Positions 33,680 to 44,828 of a stretch of DNA of 45,009 nt are shown piece by piece. The stretch is from Bacteroidales bacterium (GTDB lineage: Bacteria; Bacteroidota; Bacteroidia; Bacteroidales; UBA932), in NCBI GenBank assembly GCA_017618115.1, contig JAFZUX010000019.1:1-45009 (forward strand), given 5' to 3'. Numbering within the stretch: the stretch's first letter is position 1; each line of letters opens with the position of its first letter. The notes under the pieces are model-generated. The model saw nothing but the letters and a program-made list of their open reading frames with translations, made no database searches and was not told where the DNA came from. Position numbers and translations under genes: made by a program.

Positions 33680-35602
33680 ATGAAATATAAATCATTTATA
33701 TCAAAGGCGGCCGTTGTGTTTGCTGCTTTAATGTTTTTGTTCTCAACATCTTACGCGCAGGAACATAAGCATTGCCAGAAAGAGGAACCCAACGCAAAGT
33801 ATGTTTTCTTATTTATAGGTGACGGAATGGGCTTTGCCCACGTTGCTCTTACTGAGGCATATAAGGCTGCCGTTAAGGGAAAGATCGGAAGCGAGCCGCT
33901 GCTCTTTACCCAGTTCCCTGTAATGGGTATGGCTACTACCTATTCCGCTTCAAATATTATAACCTGCTCATCTGCAGCTGCTACGGCACTTGCATCAGGC
34001 ATTAAGACATTTAACGGAGCGGTAGGTGTTTATCCGGATTCCATACCGGTTTATCAGATTTCATACAAACTGAAAGACCTTGGTTACAAGATTGGTATAA
34101 TGACATCCGTAACTATAGACCACGCAACTCCTGCCGGTTTCTTTGCTCACAACATAAGAAGGAATGATTACTTCAACATTGCAATGGAACTTCCTGAGTC
34201 CGGCTTTGATTTCTTTGGAGGCGGCGGATTTGGCGGAGCATCTGCAAAGGGAGTTGAGAACCCGGAGAAGCAGATTTATGACAAGGTTGCAAAGTTCGGG
34301 TACACAGTTGCTTACGGTGTAGATGACTACAAGGCTAAGAAGGGTTCAACCAATAAGATGATTCTCTTCCAGGCAGACAAAAAACAGAAGGACAAGATAC
34401 TTCCTTACGCAGTAGGAAGAACGGATAAAGACCTTACTCTCAAGCAGGTTGTGGAGTCTGCAATTGACTTCCTCTACACTCCGGAGGGCAAGGGTTTCTT
34501 TATGATGTGCGAGGGTGGAAAGATAGATTTTGCAGCACATAACAACGATGCCGCAGGTACTATTACTGAGACTATTGATATGGATGAGGCTATTGCAGTA
34601 GCATACGAGTTCTATAAGCAGCATCCGGATGAGACTCTGATTGTTGTAACCGCAGACCATGAGACCGGCGGTCTTACTCTTGGAAGAGAGAAGGGTTACA
34701 AGATGTATCTGAATGAGGTTGAGAAGGTTATAAACGAGGCTAAGAAATCTGACATCACCCTGGACAACTATATGACTAAGGATGTTAGAGATACTCTCTC
34801 CAAGAAGGCTCGCATTGGTTGGACCACCAGAAGCCACACTGGAATAGCAGTTCCTGTCTTTGCAGTCGGTTCTCACAGCAGCCTCTTTGCGGGAAGACAG
34901 AACAACATAGACATCCCTAAGAACATTATGAAGGCTATGGGTGCAACTGCTGAATATACAGACCATTACTATAAGAGAAAGGCTATATTTGACAAGGACG
35001 CTCCAATCAACTCAAATGATATTGTATTCCTTGGCAACTCTCTTACAGAGGGTGGAAAATGGAGTCAGTATTTTGCAGACGTAAATGAGAAACTTGCAAA
35101 GAAGGGCGGTGCAATCCGTAACCGCGGAATAGTTGGTGATACCTTTGGAGGTATAGACGCAAGATTGGATCAGATACTTCCGGGCCAGCCTAAGACCATC
35201 TTCTTCCTTACCGGTGCAAACGATGTAAGTCACAACCTTACAGCAGATTCCATTGCCAACGGAATCATTAACGTAGTAAGGAGAATTAAGAGAGAGAGTC
35301 CAAAAACCAAGATTTATCTTCAGAGTCTGCTCCCAATTAACGAGAGCTTTAAGAGATACAGACTTCTTACCGGAAAGACTGCAATGTTCTCTGAGATAAA
35401 CGCCAAACTGAAAGAGATGGCAAAGGAGGAGAAGGTTACCTTTATTGAGCTCTATCCGCTCTTTTTGACAAACGGACCTGAGGACTTGAAATTTCCTGCA
35501 TCTGAGCAGGTTCTGAATCCTAACATTACAAAAGACGGACTCCATCTTACACAAGACGGATATAAGATTTGGGCAGAAGCAATTAGAAAATACGTGAAAT
35601 AA
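33680..35602 (+). CDS. Alkaline phosphatase fused to SGNH/GDSL hydrolase
   Basis: This is a 640-residue secreted two-domain protein with a signal peptide (residues 1-26, ending TSYAQ). Residues about 40-420 are an alkaline phosphatase: FIGDGMG (Asp48), [14 protein letters not shown] (nucleophile aligned to Ser97), [11 protein letters not shown] (147-157), [14 protein letters not shown] (Glu278, Asp283, His287), TADHETGG (Asp326, His327) and the C-terminal His386. The residue aligned with E. coli Asp101 is Cys96. Residues about 445-640 are an SGNH hydrolase: block I GNSLTEGG (Ser454), Gly486, TGANDV (Asn514) and [10 protein letters not shown] (Asp619, His622), so its catalytic set is complete. 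I infer release of phosphate and acyl or acetyl groups from complex substrates. It has its own promoter; asnS starts 11 nt downstream. Confidence 0.92.
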
Positions 35603-38395: not shown

Positions 38396-39472
38396 TTACA
38401 GAGTCTTCTGCCAGTTCCAAGCGGAACGCAGCACGTCCTCAATAGGGGTGTCTGCACTCCAACCCAGTTCTCTCTTTGCTTTTGAAGGATCTGCCCACAC
38501 CTGCTCAATATCTCCCGCTCTTCTTGGTGCAATCTCATATTTCAGATTAACTCCCGTTGCAGAGATAAACCCTCTAACAAGCTCAAGGACAGAGAGTCCG
38601 CGGCCCGTACCCAAATTGTATACAAACCACCTTCCCGTCTTTGCAGCATCTACATACGTTGGCTCATCTATAACCTCAGGCACTGTAACTCTCTCTTCCA
38701 TAAGCTTATCTATAGCCTTAACGTGTGCCTTTGCCAGGTCCACCACATAGATGTAATCTCTGATGCAGCTTCCGTCCGGAGTATTGTAATCATCTCCGAA
38801 CACATTCAGATGATCTCTGATTCCGGCAGCGGTTTGAGTGATAAAAGGTACAAGGTTCTGAGGCACTCCTCTTGGAAGCTCTCCAATGAGTGCAGAAGGG
38901 TGTGCTCCTATAGGATTGAAGTAGCGCAATGCGCACACTTTCACGTTGTTATAAGCAATCACGCTGTCTGACAAAATCTCCTCTGCCATCTGTTTGCTCT
39001 TGCCGTAAGGGGAGAGTGACCTCTTGAGCGGTGCGTTCTCCGATATAGGAAGATGCTCCTTATCCGGCTGGCCGTAAACCGTTGCGGAAGAGGAGAATAC
39101 AATGTTTGCTCTCTTGCCGCAGTCTCTCATCAGCTCAATGAGGTTGAGCAGTGAGACCATGTTGTTTCGGTAGTAATCCAGCGGCTTTTCTATGCTCTCG
39201 CCCACCGCCTTGTATGCCGCAAAGTGAACCGCGCCAACAATATCGGGATGCTTCTCAAAGACCTTTTTGAACTCCTCCTTGTTGGAACAGTCTGCCTTTT
39301 CAAAGACAACTTCCTTCTTCACGATGGTTTCTATTCCTTTGAGTACCTTATCGTTGGAGTTATAGAAGTTGTCCACTCCAACTACATCATACCCTGCGTT
39401 GATGAGTTCAACCCAAGTGTGGGAACCTATAAATCCGGTACCGCCCGTAAGAAGAATTTTGCCTTTACTCAT
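38396..39472 (-). CDS. galE: UDP-glucose 4-epimerase
   Basis: This 358-residue short-chain dehydrogenase interconverts UDP-glucose and UDP-galactose for sugar catabolism and surface glycans. The NAD motif GGTGFIGSHTWVELI is at 9-23, the catalytic Ser in SSSATVYG, the Tyr-x3-Lys pair in SPYGKSKQ, and the substrate loop NPIGAHPSALIGE are present; GRGLSVLELVRGF and EQVWADPSKAKRELGW are typical C-terminal blocks. A minus-strand TAnnTTTG lies 29 nt upstream of its start. Confidence 0.97.
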   Translation of the reverse strand: MSKGKILLTGGTGFIGSHTWVELINAGYDVVGVDNFYNSNDKVLKGIETIVKKEVVFEKADCSNKEEFKKVFEKHPDIVGAVHFAAYKAVGESIEKPLDYYRNNMVSLLNLIELMRDCGKRANIVFSSSATVYGQPDKEHLPISENAPLKRSLSPYGKSKQMAEEILSDSVIAYNNVKVCALRYFNPIGAHPSALIGELPRGVPQNLVPFITQTAAGIRDHLNVFGDDYNTPDGSCIRDYIYVVDLAKAHVKAIDKLMEERVTVPEVIDEPTYVDAAKTGRWFVYNLGTGRGLSVLELVRGFISATGVNLKYEIAPRRAGDIEQVWADPSKAKRELGWSADTPIEDVLRSAWNWQKTL

Positions 39473-39529: not shown

Positions 39530-39537
39530 TAACTTTG
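39530..39537 (+). promoter_or_regulatory. Predicted -7 element of the Cys-repeat lipoprotein gene
   Basis: TAACTTTG matches TAnnTTTG and is divergent from the galE promoter. The transcript would have a long (about 90-nt), A-rich leader before ATG 39636. Confidence 0.6.
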
Positions 39538-39635: not shown

Positions 39636-40502
39636 ATGAAAAAGATTTTTTTCAGCGTCTTCACAGCAGCCGGCATCGTTGCTATGTTGGCTTCTTGTTC
39701 AGCTAAGCCTGAGAAAGTTACCGCAATGGTAGCTCCCGGTGACAAAGTTGCCGCAGTTGTAGTTGAGTTCAACAAGGCAGTTTCTGCAGAGCAGATTTCA
39801 GCAGATGCTTTTGAGGTTGAAGGTCAGGAGGTTGTTGCAGCATTCGTATGCGACCAGGATCCAACCGTATGCCCTGAGCCAAAAGAGAAACCAGAGTGCA
39901 AGAAAGAGTGTGACTCTACAAAGGCAGAGTGCACAGAGGCAAAACCTGAGTGCAAAGAGGGTAAACCTGAGTGCGATGGCAAACATGAGTGCAAAGGTGA
40001 CAAACCAGAGTGCAAAGCAGAGTGCGACTCCACAAAGGCTGAGTGCCCGGAGGCAAAACCTGCAAAACCTGAGTGCAAAGGCAAGGACGGTAAGTTCGTA
40101 GTCCTCGTTCTGAAGCACGAGTGCCCAGAGGTAAAACCTGAGTGCGACTCAACAAAGGCTTGTCCGGAAGGAAAACCTGAGTGTGGCAAACCAGAAGGAT
40201 GCCCAGAGGCAAAGGCTGAGTGTGACTCAACAAAAGCTTGTCCTGAGGCAAAGGCTGAGTGCGATTCAACTAAGAAGTGTGAGAAACCTGAGATTGCTGT
40301 TCCTGAGGTATCTGTAAAGCAGGTTAAGGACATTGCAGCAGCAGACGGCACAACTCTTAAGGCTTGGAGCCAGGCATTCAAGGCTACAGCAGCAGCTCCT
40401 GCATTCATGGGTCCTAAAGGCCCTAAGGGTCCAAAGCACGCTTGCAAAGGTGAGAAACCTGAGTGCGAGAAAGCTTGCGAGAAAGCAGAGCCTGCAAAGT
40501 AA
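39636..40502 (+). CDS. Cysteine-repeat lipoprotein with an interrupted Ig-like domain
   Basis: This is a 288-residue lipoprotein (lipobox MLASC, Cys21) with 25 cysteines. Residues 28-72 look like the start of an Ig-like (SbsA/Big_5-type) domain (VTAMVAPGDK, VAAVVVEFNKAVS, ADAFEVEG). Two Cys/Glu/Lys/Pro-rich blocks (72-147 and 163-215) flank a single strand-like segment GKFVVLVLK (152-160) that looks like the next strand of the same fold. The blocks contain five copies of CDSTK and many KPEC or KAEC units, with cysteines spaced mainly 7, 6 and 4 residues apart. The C-terminus has GPKGPKGPK and three more cysteines. No family known to me fits; metal or redox binding is a guess. Own promoter and terminator; neighbours give no clue. 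Confidence 0.85.
   Translation: MKKIFFSVFTAAGIVAMLASCSAKPEKVTAMVAPGDKVAAVVVEFNKAVSAEQISADAFEVEGQEVVAAFVCDQDPTVCPEPKEKPECKKECDSTKAECTEAKPECKEGKPECDGKHECKGDKPECKAECDSTKAECPEAKPAKPECKGKDGKFVVLVLKHECPEVKPECDSTKACPEGKPECGKPEGCPEAKAECDSTKACPEAKAECDSTKKCEKPEIAVPEVSVKQVKDIAAADGTTLKAWSQAFKATAAAPAFMGPKGPKGPKHACKGEKPECEKACEKAEPAK
39867..40280 (+). repeat. Imperfect Cys-codon repeat array within the lipoprotein gene
   Basis: Units such as GAGTGCGACTCAACAAAGGC and CCTGAGTGCAAAG recur in phase with the cysteine spacing; five copies encode ECDSTK followed by A or K. One interruption (about 40077-40115) encodes the strand-like GKFVVLVLK segment. The repeats are coding, not a CRISPR: there are no unique equal-length spacers. 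Confidence 0.8.
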
Positions 40503-40575: not shown

Positions 40576-41700
40576 ATGGAACGTAAGAAGATAACATTTG
40601 AGTCCTTTATCAGAGGCATCCTAATCACCCTGCTTATAGTTGGTATCTACTTTCTCATCCGTAGATTAAGCAGTGCATTGCTTCCGTTTGTAATTGGCTG
40701 GCTTATTGCCTACTGGATGTACCCGCTGGTACGCTTCTTCCAGTACAGATGCAAGATGAAGTTCAGATTGCTTGCAATGCTGGCAGCCTTTGCAGCGGTT
40801 GTAGGAGTCATCTGGCTAATTGTAGTCCTTATTGTTCCTCCAATGCTGGAAGACTTTGTGAAGGTAAAGGATATGTTAGTTTCATACGTTCAGGGCAACT
40901 ACAACACAAGCGGACTCTCTGCAACCATCCATCAGTTCCTAAGCGAGAAGCTCAATCTGGGCCAGTTTAAGGGCGGCAATTTTGATCTGGAGAGTTTCTC
41001 CGCCATGGCCAAAGAGATTATGCCAAAGGTCTGGAACGTTCTAAACTCCTCATTCAGGGCCGTATCCAGCATACTGAGCATTGTGATGATGCTTCTTTAC
41101 ATAGTCTTCATACTTTTAGACTACGAGAGACTTTCAGAGGGTTGGAAAGACCTTCTTCCAAAGAAAATACGCAAAGGCACCATCACCCTTGTAAGCGACG
41201 TGGAGACCGGTATGAACCGCTACTTCCGCGGCCAGGCACTTGTTGCACTCTGCGTGGGTATCCTCTTCTGCATCGGCTTTCTCATCATAGGTTTCCCTAT
41301 GGCTATCCCGATGGGTCTTATGATGGGCGCTCTTGCTATGGTGCCATACCTGCACTTTGCCGGCTTCATCCCAATCTTCATCCTTGCCGCCGTCAAATCT
41401 GCAGAGACCGGCCAGAGTTTCTGGCTCATTATATTGCTGGTAATCATTGTCTTCTCAGTCATCCAGGTTATTGAAGACGGCTTCCTCACCCCTAAGATCA
41501 TGGGAAAGGTAACAGGCCTCAGCCCTGCTATCATCCTTCTCTCCCTCTCCATCTGGGGCTCACTGCTGGGCATCTTGGGAATGATCATCGCTCTCCCAAT
41601 GACAACCATCCTACTTTCCTACTACAAGAACTACGTTCTCAACCAACCCGCCCCAACAGACCTGGAGAGTACAGACCACCAGGAAGATGTTAATGATTGA
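40576..41700 (+). CDS. AI-2E family transporter (PerM-like permease)
   Basis: This 374-residue polytopic membrane protein fits the AI-2E transporter family (TqsA/YdiK/PerM type). It has N-terminal helices (about 9-65), a pair around 72-98 (LAAFAAVVGVIWLIVVLIVPPML), a large soluble segment (about 99-155), and a C-terminal helix group (about 215-345) with the family pattern VIQVIEDGFLTPKIMGKVTGLSPAIILLSLSIWGSLLGILGMIIALPMTTIL. Members export diverse small molecules; substrate here is unknown. The next gene starts 2 nt beyond its stop. Confidence 0.92.
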   Translation: MERKKITFESFIRGILITLLIVGIYFLIRRLSSALLPFVIGWLIAYWMYPLVRFFQYRCKMKFRLLAMLAAFAAVVGVIWLIVVLIVPPMLEDFVKVKDMLVSYVQGNYNTSGLSATIHQFLSEKLNLGQFKGGNFDLESFSAMAKEIMPKVWNVLNSSFRAVSSILSIVMMLLYIVFILLDYERLSEGWKDLLPKKIRKGTITLVSDVETGMNRYFRGQALVALCVGILFCIGFLIIGFPMAIPMGLMMGALAMVPYLHFAGFIPIFILAAVKSAETGQSFWLIILLVIIVFSVIQVIEDGFLTPKIMGKVTGLSPAIILLSLSIWGSLLGILGMIIALPMTTILLSYYKNYVLNQPAPTDLESTDHQEDVND

Positions 41701-41702
41701 TT

Positions 41703-42092
41703 ATGGACAGATTAGAACACTCAGTTGAGGTAAAACATAATTATGGCTTGAATTGCTGCCAGGCAGTCCTCCTGGAGTTTGCTCCGGAGATTGAAAACGC
41801 CAGGCAGATGACCAAAGAGCAACTTCTCAACCTCGGTTCCGGATTCGGAGCCGGGATGGGCTCAATGAACGGCACCTGCGGAGCGCTTTGTGGTGCTGCA
41901 ATGGTCGTAGGCCTGCTCAATAACTCGGAAAACCCCACTACAGCCATCACCAGAGAGCTCTCCAACGCCTTCAAGGCCAAAGTGGGCGCCCTCACTTGCA
42001 GAGAAATTAAAGGCGCAGACACCAAACAGCCTCTCTGCTCCTGTGACAACTGCGTCCGCCACGCCGTCCGCCTCACAGAAACTGCCCTCTAA
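41703..42092 (+). CDS. C_GCAxxG_C_C family redox-type protein
   Basis: This 129-residue protein has the hallmark cysteine pattern of the C_GCAxxG_C_C family: NCCQAVLLEF near residues 18-27, GTCGALCGAAMVVGL around 57-71, and a C-terminal CREIKG ... CSCDNCVRHA with four more cysteines. The motifs suggest a redox or metal-binding role, which I do not know to be characterised. ATG 41703 lies 2 nt after the permease stop, so the two are co-transcribed; the in-frame TTG at 41697 overlaps the permease gene and is less likely. Confidence 0.88.
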   Translation: MDRLEHSVEVKHNYGLNCCQAVLLEFAPEIENARQMTKEQLLNLGSGFGAGMGSMNGTCGALCGAAMVVGLLNNSENPTTAITRELSNAFKAKVGALTCREIKGADTKQPLCSCDNCVRHAVRLTETAL

Positions 42093-42219: not shown

Positions 42220-42345
42220 ATGAAGAAACAATTTTACATAGCTCCACTTTCAGAAATTGTTGAAATTGTTCAAGAAAGTGGGTTGTGCATTACATTAAGT
42301 CAGGCAAGATTCATTGGTTTTTTAGAGGATGGAGGGGATTTGTAA
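42220..42345 (+). CDS. Short leader-like ORF upstream of a fimbrillin-like lipoprotein
   Basis: This 41-residue ORF (MKKQFYIAPLSEIVEIV ... FLEDGGDL) lies behind a good promoter and its stop overlaps the lipoprotein start by one base (TAATG), so translation is coupled. From memory, short ORFs of the form MKK-x-Y-x-x-P-x-x-E ending in a Gly/Asp-rich tail precede fimbrillin-like surface lipoproteins in Bacteroides and Prevotella; this one fits that pattern. It has no signal peptide, and function is unknown. The open frame continues upstream to 42121 but crosses the promoter, so the ATG at 42220 is chosen. Confidence 0.72.
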   Translation: MKKQFYIAPLSEIVEIVQESGLCITLSQARFIGFLEDGGDL

Positions 42346-44828
42346 TGAAAAGGTCTGTATTTAACAATATTCTTTTGAGAGTTGTTTTAATACTGCTCTC
42401 TGTTTGTGTTTTATCATGCACAAAAGAGGATAGATATGTGCCTGAAGAAGAGCCGGTTGTCATAGATAATTCGTTCCCATTTTCAATTACGGTGGGAACC
42501 GGTGCAAATACCAGAGCTGGCGTAAATTCTTCTGGTGAATATGTCTTCCGTGATGGAGATATGTTGTTTGTAGCCAATAGCGATCAGTCAATTCGAGGAG
42601 AGTTAACATTGACTTCAACTTCTGATGAGGGAAGGAAGGGGACATTTAGTGGCGCATTTAACGAAGAACCATCTGAGGGCACAACCTTTTATGTGACTTT
42701 GGTAAGTGGAGGAAACGACAAGATACATACATTAGTGGGTGAAGCACCTTACCGTTATGTTGCTGCAACTAGAACTTATCCTACAGGCGTACCGGCAACA
42801 CCGGGAGATCCACCCGTACAAGGAGCAATAGCTTCTTCATTGGAGGAAGCAATCAACTGGTATAGTGACTTTACTGGTTCCTTCAACTACGGAGAAACAA
42901 ATAGTTGCAATTTAAGTCAAGGCTCTACATTCATTGAATTTAATATTAGATACTTGGATATTTATGTAGATTCAAAATCGTTTGGAGAAGATGCCATAAT
43001 TGAATTTACTAATACTAATGGTGAATCCGAAATTACTGCTGATCATAGAGAGGGGGTAGTCGCTTTAACCGCCGATGAGGCTGGATATGCTTATTCACAA
43101 TGTTTTGTTGCTTTCCCAGGCGGAACTGTACTTGATGGTGCTGAAGTAACAATATCTTCGGATGATTTTCCAGATATGGATTTTTCAATTAAAGGTGCAA
43201 CTTTACAGAAAAGCAAGAAATACAATGTAAAGAGGGATGTAGTAGATGATTTTTCTATAGTGACGACAACGGATAATACTACTATAACCTTTAATAGTTA
43301 TTATCTTAGATCTGGAGCTGGTGTGCAATATCAAATTGCTCCTAGCGAAGACTGGTTGTCTTACACGGAGCCTCTAACTGGCTTGGCTGCAAATGTTGTT
43401 GTAAGTTTTCGTGCTAAGCGTGTTGATGTAGGAGCGGGGAAAGGTGTCTATGATAATCAGACTAATACAGATGCGCAAGGTCCTACCACATGGCCTAAGA
43501 GTGCAGGACGCCCAATTTTTACATTTTCTCAGCCGGTAAAGGTCTATGGAGACATAATGTCTTTACTATGTGACGCAAATTACAATAAAACTAACTATCT
43601 CAACAAACATGATTTTTCGGGGTCTTTTTGGAATGTTACCAATATGGATATTCATGAAGACCGTAACCTGGTTCTTTCTGCACAGGATCTCACTAGCGGT
43701 ACCAATCATTACCAAAACATGTTTAGACAAAGTTCCATAGTTAAGGGCAATCACATAGTTATTTCTGCTGTAACAATGGGTAATTATAGTTGCAATAGCA
43801 TGTTTAAGCAGTGCTATAGTATGACATCAGCTCCCGTACTTAAGTCAACAACTATGGCTCCTTATTGTTACCAGTCTATGTTTGAGAAATGCCGTAGTTT
43901 GACGGAAGTTCCAGAACTTAAGGCAAAGATTTTAGATACGAGTTGTTATAGGCAAATGTTTTGTGGAACAGGAGAAAACATGGTTTTGACATCTGTTCCG
44001 GAAGACCTGTTACCTGCAACTGAATTGGAACCGGATTGTTATTACCAGATGTTTTGTAATTGTAAAAATCTGGCAAACGCTCCAAAATTACCGGCTACAT
44101 CATTAGCGGAGAAGTGCTATTTTCAAATGTTTTATGGTTGCAAAAGTTTAACTTCCGCCCCAGAACTTCCAGCAACCATACTTGCAGACGTTTGTTATGA
44201 AGGAATGTTTCTTGATTGCACGAAACTGACTAGTGCCCCAGAACTTCCAGCAACCACACTTGCTCCTTATTGCTATCACAATATGTTCCGTGGTTGTATT
44301 CAGTTAACTGTAGTACCAGCACTGCCAGCCACTACTTTAGCTGATTTTTGCTACCGCAGAATGTTTGAAGGATGTACTAAAATAACAACTGCCCCAGAAC
44401 GACTGCCAGCAACGACACTTGCTCAATCGTGCTATGTGTCAATGTTTAAAAACTGCAATAAGTTAAAAACAGCGCCTGAACTTCCAGCGACTACACTTGC
44501 AGATAGTTGTTACTGTGAAATGTTCAGACTCTGCAAGATTATAACGGAATCGCCAGTACTTCCAGCTGAGACTTTGAAAAATTATTGTTATGATAGAATG
44601 TTTTATGATTGCTATGTATTAAAGACCGTAACTTGTTTAGCTACTAATCCAACTGATCCTAACGTAAAAGAACCAACTATTTCATGGTTGGCTGGAGTCA
44701 TTGTTACACAAGGAAGTAATGACCATACTTTTTATGTCAATGAAAATATTTTCGGACAAGATTTATGGGAGCGTGGTGATTCTGGAATACCTTATGATTG
44801 GATAATAGAACCATATAATCCAGAATAG
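42345..44828 (+). CDS. Fimbrillin-like lipoprotein with leucine-rich-type CY-MF-C repeats
   Basis: This 827-residue protein has a lipoprotein signal ending VCVLSC (Cys25). Residues about 40-300 resemble the N-terminal fold of fimbrillin/Mfa-like proteins (FRDGDMLFVANSD, GTFSGAF, and GATLQKSKKYNVKRDV at the end). After a linker domain (about 300-480), about eleven repeats of roughly 26 residues run from 483 to about 770, of the form CYxxMFxxCxxLTxAPELPATTLAxx, a BspA/DUF285-like leucine-rich repeat type. The end (LATNPTDPNVKEPTISWLAG ... YDWIIEPYNPE) is a cap. It is probably exposed at the surface and may bind host or partner molecules. The gene is visibly more AT-rich than its neighbours, and an IS follows 41 nt after the stop, suggesting acquired DNA. 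Confidence 0.88.
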   Translation: MKRSVFNNILLRVVLILLSVCVLSCTKEDRYVPEEEPVVIDNSFPFSITVGTGANTRAGVNSSGEYVFRDGDMLFVANSDQSIRGELTLTSTSDEGRKGTFSGAFNEEPSEGTTFYVTLVSGGNDKIHTLVGEAPYRYVAATRTYPTGVPATPGDPPVQGAIASSLEEAINWYSDFTGSFNYGETNSCNLSQGSTFIEFNIRYLDIYVDSKSFGEDAIIEFTNTNGESEITADHREGVVALTADEAGYAYSQCFVAFPGGTVLDGAEVTISSDDFPDMDFSIKGATLQKSKKYNVKRDVVDDFSIVTTTDNTTITFNSYYLRSGAGVQYQIAPSEDWLSYTEPLTGLAANVVVSFRAKRVDVGAGKGVYDNQTNTDAQGPTTWPKSAGRPIFTFSQPVKVYGDIMSLLCDANYNKTNYLNKHDFSGSFWNVTNMDIHEDRNLVLSAQDLTSGTNHYQNMFRQSSIVKGNHIVISAVTMGNYSCNSMFKQCYSMTSAPVLKSTTMAPYCYQSMFEKCRSLTEVPELKAKILDTSCYRQMFCGTGENMVLTSVPEDLLPATELEPDCYYQMFCNCKNLANAPKLPATSLAEKCYFQMFYGCKSLTSAPELPATILADVCYEGMFLDCTKLTSAPELPATTLAPYCYHNMFRGCIQLTVVPALPATTLADFCYRRMFEGCTKITTAPERLPATTLAQSCYVSMFKNCNKLKTAPELPATTLADSCYCEMFRLCKIITESPVLPAETLKNYCYDRMFYDCYVLKTVTCLATNPTDPNVKEPTISWLAGVIVTQGSNDHTFYVNENIFGQDLWERGDSGIPYDWIIEPYNPE
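43791..44660 (+). repeat. About eleven tandem 78-bp coding repeats
   Basis: TGT/TGC-TAT ... ATGTTT ... TGT units recur at about 75-81 bp (starts near 43791, 43866, 43944 and 44037 and on). The core CCAGAACTTCCAGCAACCAC is nearly identical in the central copies, while the outer copies are diverged, the usual pattern of unequal duplication within a repeat protein. Confidence 0.85.

Follow-up and report, generated by a model that had tools for sequence, protein, structure and literature searches.

A Bacteroidales lipoprotein in which cysteine-rich arrays appear to split one EstA-type Ig-like domain

Within the window, by which we mean the whole 45,009-nucleotide stretch of Bacteroidales DNA that was analysed, one open reading frame encodes a cysteine-rich lipoprotein, hereafter the window protein (Table 1). 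Its gene lies between galE and a gene for an AI-2E-type transporter, and in the loci compared from the genus of the window (g1) it likewise sits beside galE; most of these loci also have the AI-2E-type transporter gene farther along. Promoters of Bacteroidota have the -7 consensus TAnnTTTG, and a putative element of this kind, TAACTTTG, is found upstream of the start codon; it is shared by the window and the two genomes nearest to it, and three other rows of the alignment are not aligned there. Elsewhere in the window, we observed a C_GCAxxG_C_C redox-type protein, seen at 3 of the 13 loci compared in g1, all three belonging to the window's clade, as well as a single protein that joins an alkaline phosphatase to a GDSL/SGNH hydrolase domain. 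A further neighbour is an 847-residue lipoprotein-like protein with 30 Cys, which had no Pfam or NCBIfam match at E up to 1 and carries ten CY..MF repeats, 26-31 residues apart, at positions 528-768.

Table 1. Positions in the window of the lipoprotein gene, its parts and its neighbours
Feature	Position	Strand	Details
Alkaline phosphatase-GDSL/SGNH hydrolase gene	33680-35602	+	640 aa
galE	38396-39472		divergent from lipoprotein gene
TAACTTTG, promoter-like -7 element	39530-39537	+	106 bp 5' of start codon; putative function
Lipoprotein gene	39636-40502	+	start ATG; 288-aa product
Signal peptide and lipobox LASC	39636-39698	+	residues 1-21, lipidated Cys21; read from sequence; LPAM_1 weak
Ig-like block 1	39717-39857	+	residues 28-74; PF18435 5-59; array-less profile 1-79 on residues 1-77, i-E 1e-16
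Cys array 1, loop 1	39858-40079	+	about residues 75-148; loop 1 without array in 36/51 sequences
Strand-like block 2, GKFVVLVLK	40089-40115	+	residues 152-160; array-less profile 86-104 on residues 147-165, i-E 0.1
Cys array 2, loop 2	40116-40286	+	about residues 161-217
Ig-like block 3	40287-40391	+	residues 218-252; array-less profile 116-150, i-E 3e-08
C-terminal tail	40392-40499	+	3 Cys; His-rich in many relatives
AI-2E-type transporter gene	40576-41700		other flank of lipoprotein gene
C_GCAxxG_C_C redox-type protein gene	41697-42092	+	
847-aa lipoprotein-like protein gene	42285-44828	+	

The lipobox of the window protein spans residues 18-21, as read from the sequence, and the Pfam model LPAM_1 matched weakly (11.5 bits against a cut-off of 20). 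There are 25 Cys residues (21, 72, 79, 88, 92, 99, 106, 113, 119, 126, 130, 137, 147, 163, 170, 176, 183, 189, 196, 202, 209, 215, 270, 277, and 281), and 84% of the Cys gaps between residues 73 and 216 measure 4, 6, or 7, a share equalled in none of 20,000 shuffles of that segment. CDSTK occurs five times (residues 92, 130, 170, 196, and 209) and KPEC eight times. In these respects, namely length, Cys number, lipobox, spacing, and CDSTK copies, a preliminary description of the locus is confirmed. The rows reported by Tandem Repeats Finder include repeats in the DNA at 39925-40017 and at 40125-40270. The five CDSTK copies are encoded by five different codon strings, so that at least these units are not fresh slippage copies; three codon strings serve the eight KPEC copies.

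Two profiles bear on the position of the arrays in the domain. The Pfam model EstA_Ig_like (PF18435) matched the window protein with 45.2 bits (curated cut-off 26.7) in two stretches, its positions 5-59 falling on block 1 and positions 61-119 on the product of 40062-40358, in the same order; the first Ig half, earlier put at residues 28-72, is thereby given by Pfam as residues 28-74. A second profile (A4), built from 13 relatives without arrays, matched in three ordered blocks, of which the middle one is weak by itself, and the arrays occupy two loops, one each side of the strand-like GKFVVLVLK. With A4, both outer blocks were found in 30/30 arrayed sequences (in G380 within one continuous match). 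The middle block was recovered in all 14 g1 rows, in 11 of them weakly and on its own (i-E 0.05-0.8), in three joined to a neighbouring block, and in 2 of the 16 arrayed sequences outside g1. Deleting the arrays from the window protein brought no gain in score (76.2 bits against 82.6 for the full protein, with local scoring). In G000, exchanging blocks 2 and 3 lowered the score by only about 3 bits and scrambling both by about 24 bits, and the block order therefore rests on match positions and not on score. Profile-profile comparison aligned block 1 only between A4 and A5, and blocks 1 and 3, with the array in between, between A4 and A6. At E up to 0.01, PF18435 was matched by 18 of 19 A2 members and by all nine A6 members, the first of which reached 21.8 bits and so lies below the cut-off. 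These sequence matches support one Ig-like domain split by arrays in the window protein, much as the preliminary description had proposed.

PF18435 is the Ig-like N-terminal domain of esterases, solved in the Thermotoga esterase 3DOH/3DOI. The family profile matched 3DOH weakly (E 0.057), and a true esterase with this domain is present in the relative L060, which matches 3DOH at 3.4e-35 and whose Ig part forms a separate match (i-E 0.00014). The window protein shares PF18435 with the EstA esterases and differs from them in being a lipoprotein that stands alone, in carrying arrays of Cys in two loops, and in having Cys in its tail; it ends after that tail, no alpha/beta-hydrolase follows the Ig-like domain, and no hydrolase family matched at E up to 1 in Pfam. 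No PDB chain was matched by the window protein at E up to 1 (phmmer). It also resembles lipoproteins from its own bacterial family that are EstA_Ig-like but have no arrays (for example L054, L055, and L061); these have the same core and mostly the same lipoprotein layout. Array-less relatives measure 154-164 aa in 17 of 21 cases and 178-261 aa in the other four, and they differ in having no Cys in the loops and tail, with medians of 15 aa for loop 1, 22 aa for loop 2, and 8 aa for the tail. A different fold in homologues with no arrays was a prospect raised in the preliminary description; by sequence, these relatives match the same domain. We also observed an array-less relative without the lipobox Cys (L058:1450-2232), the loops of which are rich in Gly, Arg, Met, and Pro and hold no Cys arrays.

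As for a family name, which the first description could not supply, the domain does have one in EstA_Ig_like, but for the array-bearing form we found no family name in Pfam, NCBIfam, or PADLOC. Nor was such a protein described in the mostly open-access literature searched, part of which concerned side questions and which included passages of PMC5080379 and PMC10352776. Judged from sequence, the array-bearing lipoprotein is a real, unusual, and well-kept variant of a known domain.

In the window's genus, many genomes of which are incomplete, the gene is carried by 15 of 39 genomes (the search gave 16, including the later dropped G004). A galE at least 80% identical to that of the window is found in 16 genomes (in G029 as a partial match, 84%), and 15 of these have the lipoprotein gene; the sixteenth, G032, has other genes beside galE and no lipoprotein gene. 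The reading frame is intact in 14 of the 15 carriers and split by contig ends in G005, so the frameshifted state that had been contemplated for relatives was not what we found. In the bacterial family, profile A1 matched 32 and profile A2 34 of 398 genomes, and A2 matched 37 of 400 genomes in a second genus (g22); the genomes drawn for the family and for g22 are partly the same, and among those counted are an esterase and some array-only matches. Wider searches, resting on a loose first look that can miss distant forms, gave no member besides the window among 393 genomes of the order (A1) once L066 and L067 had been dropped, as these show no Ig core and several overlapping open frames in periodic DNA, and matched only the window among 316 genomes of the phylum (A2). 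Of the four named records, one is without a source, and the other three belong to uncultured Bacteroidales that come from the reticulum of water buffalo, the rumen of yak, and the abomasum of goat. We rejected a mobile element, with no match on plasmids or viral contigs and the gene beside galE in the g1 loci compared, and a defence gene, with no PADLOC match at E up to 0.1.

For comparison of the arrays, we used 51 intact sequences of one bacterial family, the window included, and counted as an array any loop with at least 4 Cys. Dropped from this set were G004 (568-aa frame in which the match is limited to residues 1-77), G005 (array interrupted by contig ends, which leaves the gene in two pieces), contig-end fragments (G887 and G890), a full esterase (G320), a second G281 match (558-aa frame), array-only matches in G027:C5 (88-aa frame) and G050 (one with a stop), and L066 and L067. 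The G005 assembly breaks inside the array (L015 end, L022 start), with near-identical GEKHDCGKAA repeats on one contig, and array length may for this reason be underestimated in short-read genomes.

Arrays are absent from 21 of the 51 sequences, confined to loop 2 in 15 and to loop 1 in one (G358), and present in both loops in 14, all of them in the window's genus; G397 holds one array-less and one arrayed copy. A tree of the core (51 rows, 91 columns, poorly resolved) groups the two-loop proteins with support of 93/90 and calls for at least three changes between array and none, or at least five among the four states. Nevertheless, we do not claim multiple origins, because AU tests do not reject a single one (p 0.069 for the arrayed rows and 0.111 for loop-1 arrays). 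The unit types differ by lineage (KPEC, CDSTK, CDGKHAD, CGEKHE, CEKHEG, and GEKHDCGKAA), with Cys, an acidic residue, and often His being kept. Moreover, relatives with loop-2 arrays have 0-7 Cys in the core, where Cys is present in 14 of 15, and among the 21 array-less relatives core Cys is found solely in G1013 (one Cys).

Array length varies between close relatives, as had been anticipated. In 11 close pairs within the window's genus, which share genomes and are not independent, 56 of 70 gap events lie in the arrays, 12 in the tails, and one each in the core and the signal peptide, with the frame open throughout. The omega values of these pairs range over 0.025-0.20 for arrays and 0.067-0.128 for the core, the arrays being higher in 6/11; silent divergence is greater in the arrays than in the core in all 11, perhaps because units were shuffled or repeats were misaligned, and this makes the omega values rough. 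In the protein alignments of nine pairs, which favour the pairing of Cys, no array residue is conserved better than Cys (0.99 of 318, followed by Lys at 0.88), and Cys again ranks first in a nucleotide-alignment control of nine pairs with 21 out-of-frame codons dropped (0.93 of 326, next best 0.84). On these alignments, the amino acids of the arrays are under purifying selection with Cys kept best, and the low omega together with the retention of Cys points to selected coding arrays and not to decay.

The same data bear on a view in which the loops would be hypervariable insertion sites, the arrays a low-complexity tether, and the Cys incidental. The clustering of indels in arrays is compatible with it, as are long loops of other make-up in some array-less relatives, these being non-Cys loops in G296 and G254 and a 48-residue loop 2 in G1022 and G397a. 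However, the low array omega, a conservation that is highest on Cys, and the occurrence of Cys arrays, built of differing units, in one loop or the other as well as in the tail all argue against a mere spacer, which we judge quite improbable. By comparison of sequences, we are highly confident in the lipoprotein signal, the split domain, the array positions, the in-frame length variation, and the purifying selection, taken jointly.

With regard to function, we propose that the product would be a membrane-anchored lipoprotein outside the cytoplasm, in which a single EstA-type Ig-like domain serves as the folded anchor, and two loops and the C-terminal tail are extended into probably disordered arrays of Cys, Glu, Lys, and Pro. 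Under the reducing conditions of the gut, the thiolates of the arrays, together with nearby Asp or Glu and His, would most likely bind and buffer soft or borderline metal ions, candidates being Zn, Cu, Cd, Ni, or similar. The outcome would be a metallothionein-like sponge built into loops, with a capacity that would depend on how many units there are and change by in-frame indels. The most likely, if unproven, role suggested by the sequence is that of a sponge, located outside the inner membrane, for binding metal or thiols; to extracytoplasmic thiolate binding of metal by the arrays in particular we would give an even chance.

We regard metal or thiol binding as the likeliest role because the arrays combine Cys with Asp or Glu and some His and contain hardly any aromatics; the Cys in the core of most loop-2 relatives also speaks for soft metals. 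Over 3324 array residues the composition is 19.2% Glu, 18.8% Lys, 15.8% Cys, 9.6% Pro, 6.6% Asp, and 2.5% His, with Phe and Tyr at about 0. At least three His in loops and tail are found in 27 of 30 arrayed and in 0 of 21 array-less sequences, a contrast confounded by loop length and kinship; it comes down to three independent pairs, too few to reach significance, and in most ways of pairing all three go in the same direction. Against metal binding, the window protein itself has no more than three His in these parts, and no metal transporter, regulator, or chaperone is among the annotated neighbours.

Metallothioneins are Cys- and Lys-rich and aromatic-poor, with cysteines typically clustered as CXC or CC. 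The window protein is alike in composition and, by analogy, likely in forming metal thiolates. It differs in its putative extracytoplasmic lipoprotein nature, in having arrays in the loops of a folded domain, and in the near absence of CXC: across 480 array gaps in the 30 arrayed sequences, CXC accounts for one and CC for 63, and neither is found in the window protein. Metallothionein models in Pfam and NCBIfam gave no match to it at E up to 1, which, like the scarcity of CXC, speaks against metal binding.

Alternatively, the Cys might cross-link within or between lipoprotein molecules as disulfides, stiffening the envelope or forming a coat. The regular 6-7 residue spacing (288 of 480 array gaps), the extracytoplasmic location indicated by the lipobox, and the strong Cys conservation would suit such cross-links. 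Against this, Cys numbers after the lipidated Cys show no excess of even values (17 even versus 13 odd, n=30), spacing and unit type differ among relatives, and ruminant stomachs are strongly reducing. On the surface coat, the preliminary description was not borne out. According to PMC5080379, the surface export signal following the lipidated Cys is C-X-K-(D/E)2-X or SDDDD. The window protein has C-S-A-K-P-E, and SAKPE, at mature positions +2 to +6, matches neither of these signals, although the rule in this bacterial family may differ. Surface display of the window protein thus finds no support from known export signals, and we consider disulfide cross-linking unlikely.

A third role for the thiols would be that of a redox or sulfur buffer, acting as a sacrificial thiol or as a persulfide or sulfide trap when the envelope is briefly exposed to oxygen or electrophiles. 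Arrays that are Cys-rich and otherwise featureless would be apt for this, three of the four named relatives come from ruminant stomachs, and the C_GCAxxG_C_C redox-type protein is encoded by the second gene downstream in the window. That neighbour is, however, limited to the 3/13 g1 loci given above, and a buffer would not need the enrichment in acidic residues and His; we hold this role to be rather doubtful, somewhat more so than the cross-links.

Lastly, we considered a radical SAM/SPASM enzyme of TIGR04133 (rSAM_w_lipo), which could cross-link the Cys arrays by thioethers before export. Two such gene products were tested and scored 468 and 462 bits against a cut-off of 425. Ten g1 loci from beyond the window's clade were compared: in seven, the enzyme gene adjoins the array lipoprotein gene, being convergent at 55-203 bp; in the others it is convergent at 1.3-1.4 kb (two loci) or on the same strand at 3.2 kb (one locus, partial at a contig end). 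We observed two TIGR04133 subtypes (loci L170-L188), both present in the window genome on contigs C19 and C25. The subtype found near the array lipoprotein gene, that on C25, occurs in 6 of 9 array-bearing genomes tested and in 2 of 6 array-less ones. On the other hand, the enzyme and lipoprotein genes form no operon and are not adjacent in the window's clade, the arrayed G324 and G289 have no TIGR04133 match, the arrayed G397 has the other subtype only, and the array-less G296 and G254 possess the C25 one. G032 even keeps that subtype beside galE without a lipoprotein gene, which lowers the odds of the thioether reading further. The other subtype lies next to a different lipoprotein, poor in Cys, in 6 of 11 loci, and no lipoprotein-partner model of NCBIfam, such as TIGR04134, was among the matches at E up to 5 for 16 members. 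The enzyme-lipoprotein link is weak and thioether cross-linking highly improbable. Were it nonetheless to occur, and we rate this just as low, thioether ladders on the Ig-like lipoprotein of this genus would represent a new kind of modified cell-envelope protein, the ladder length of which would evolve by gain and loss of units.

Returning to the metal-binding proposal, if the arrays bind metal, the protein would be an extracytoplasmic metallothionein-like device in gut Bacteroidales that is nameless in the family libraries searched. The family is also a clear example from nature of low-complexity arrays, specialised in their chemistry, that have been placed in the loops of one folded domain. 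Here, array-less, loop-1, loop-2, and two-loop relatives stand side by side and may serve as natural controls for capacity versus number of units.
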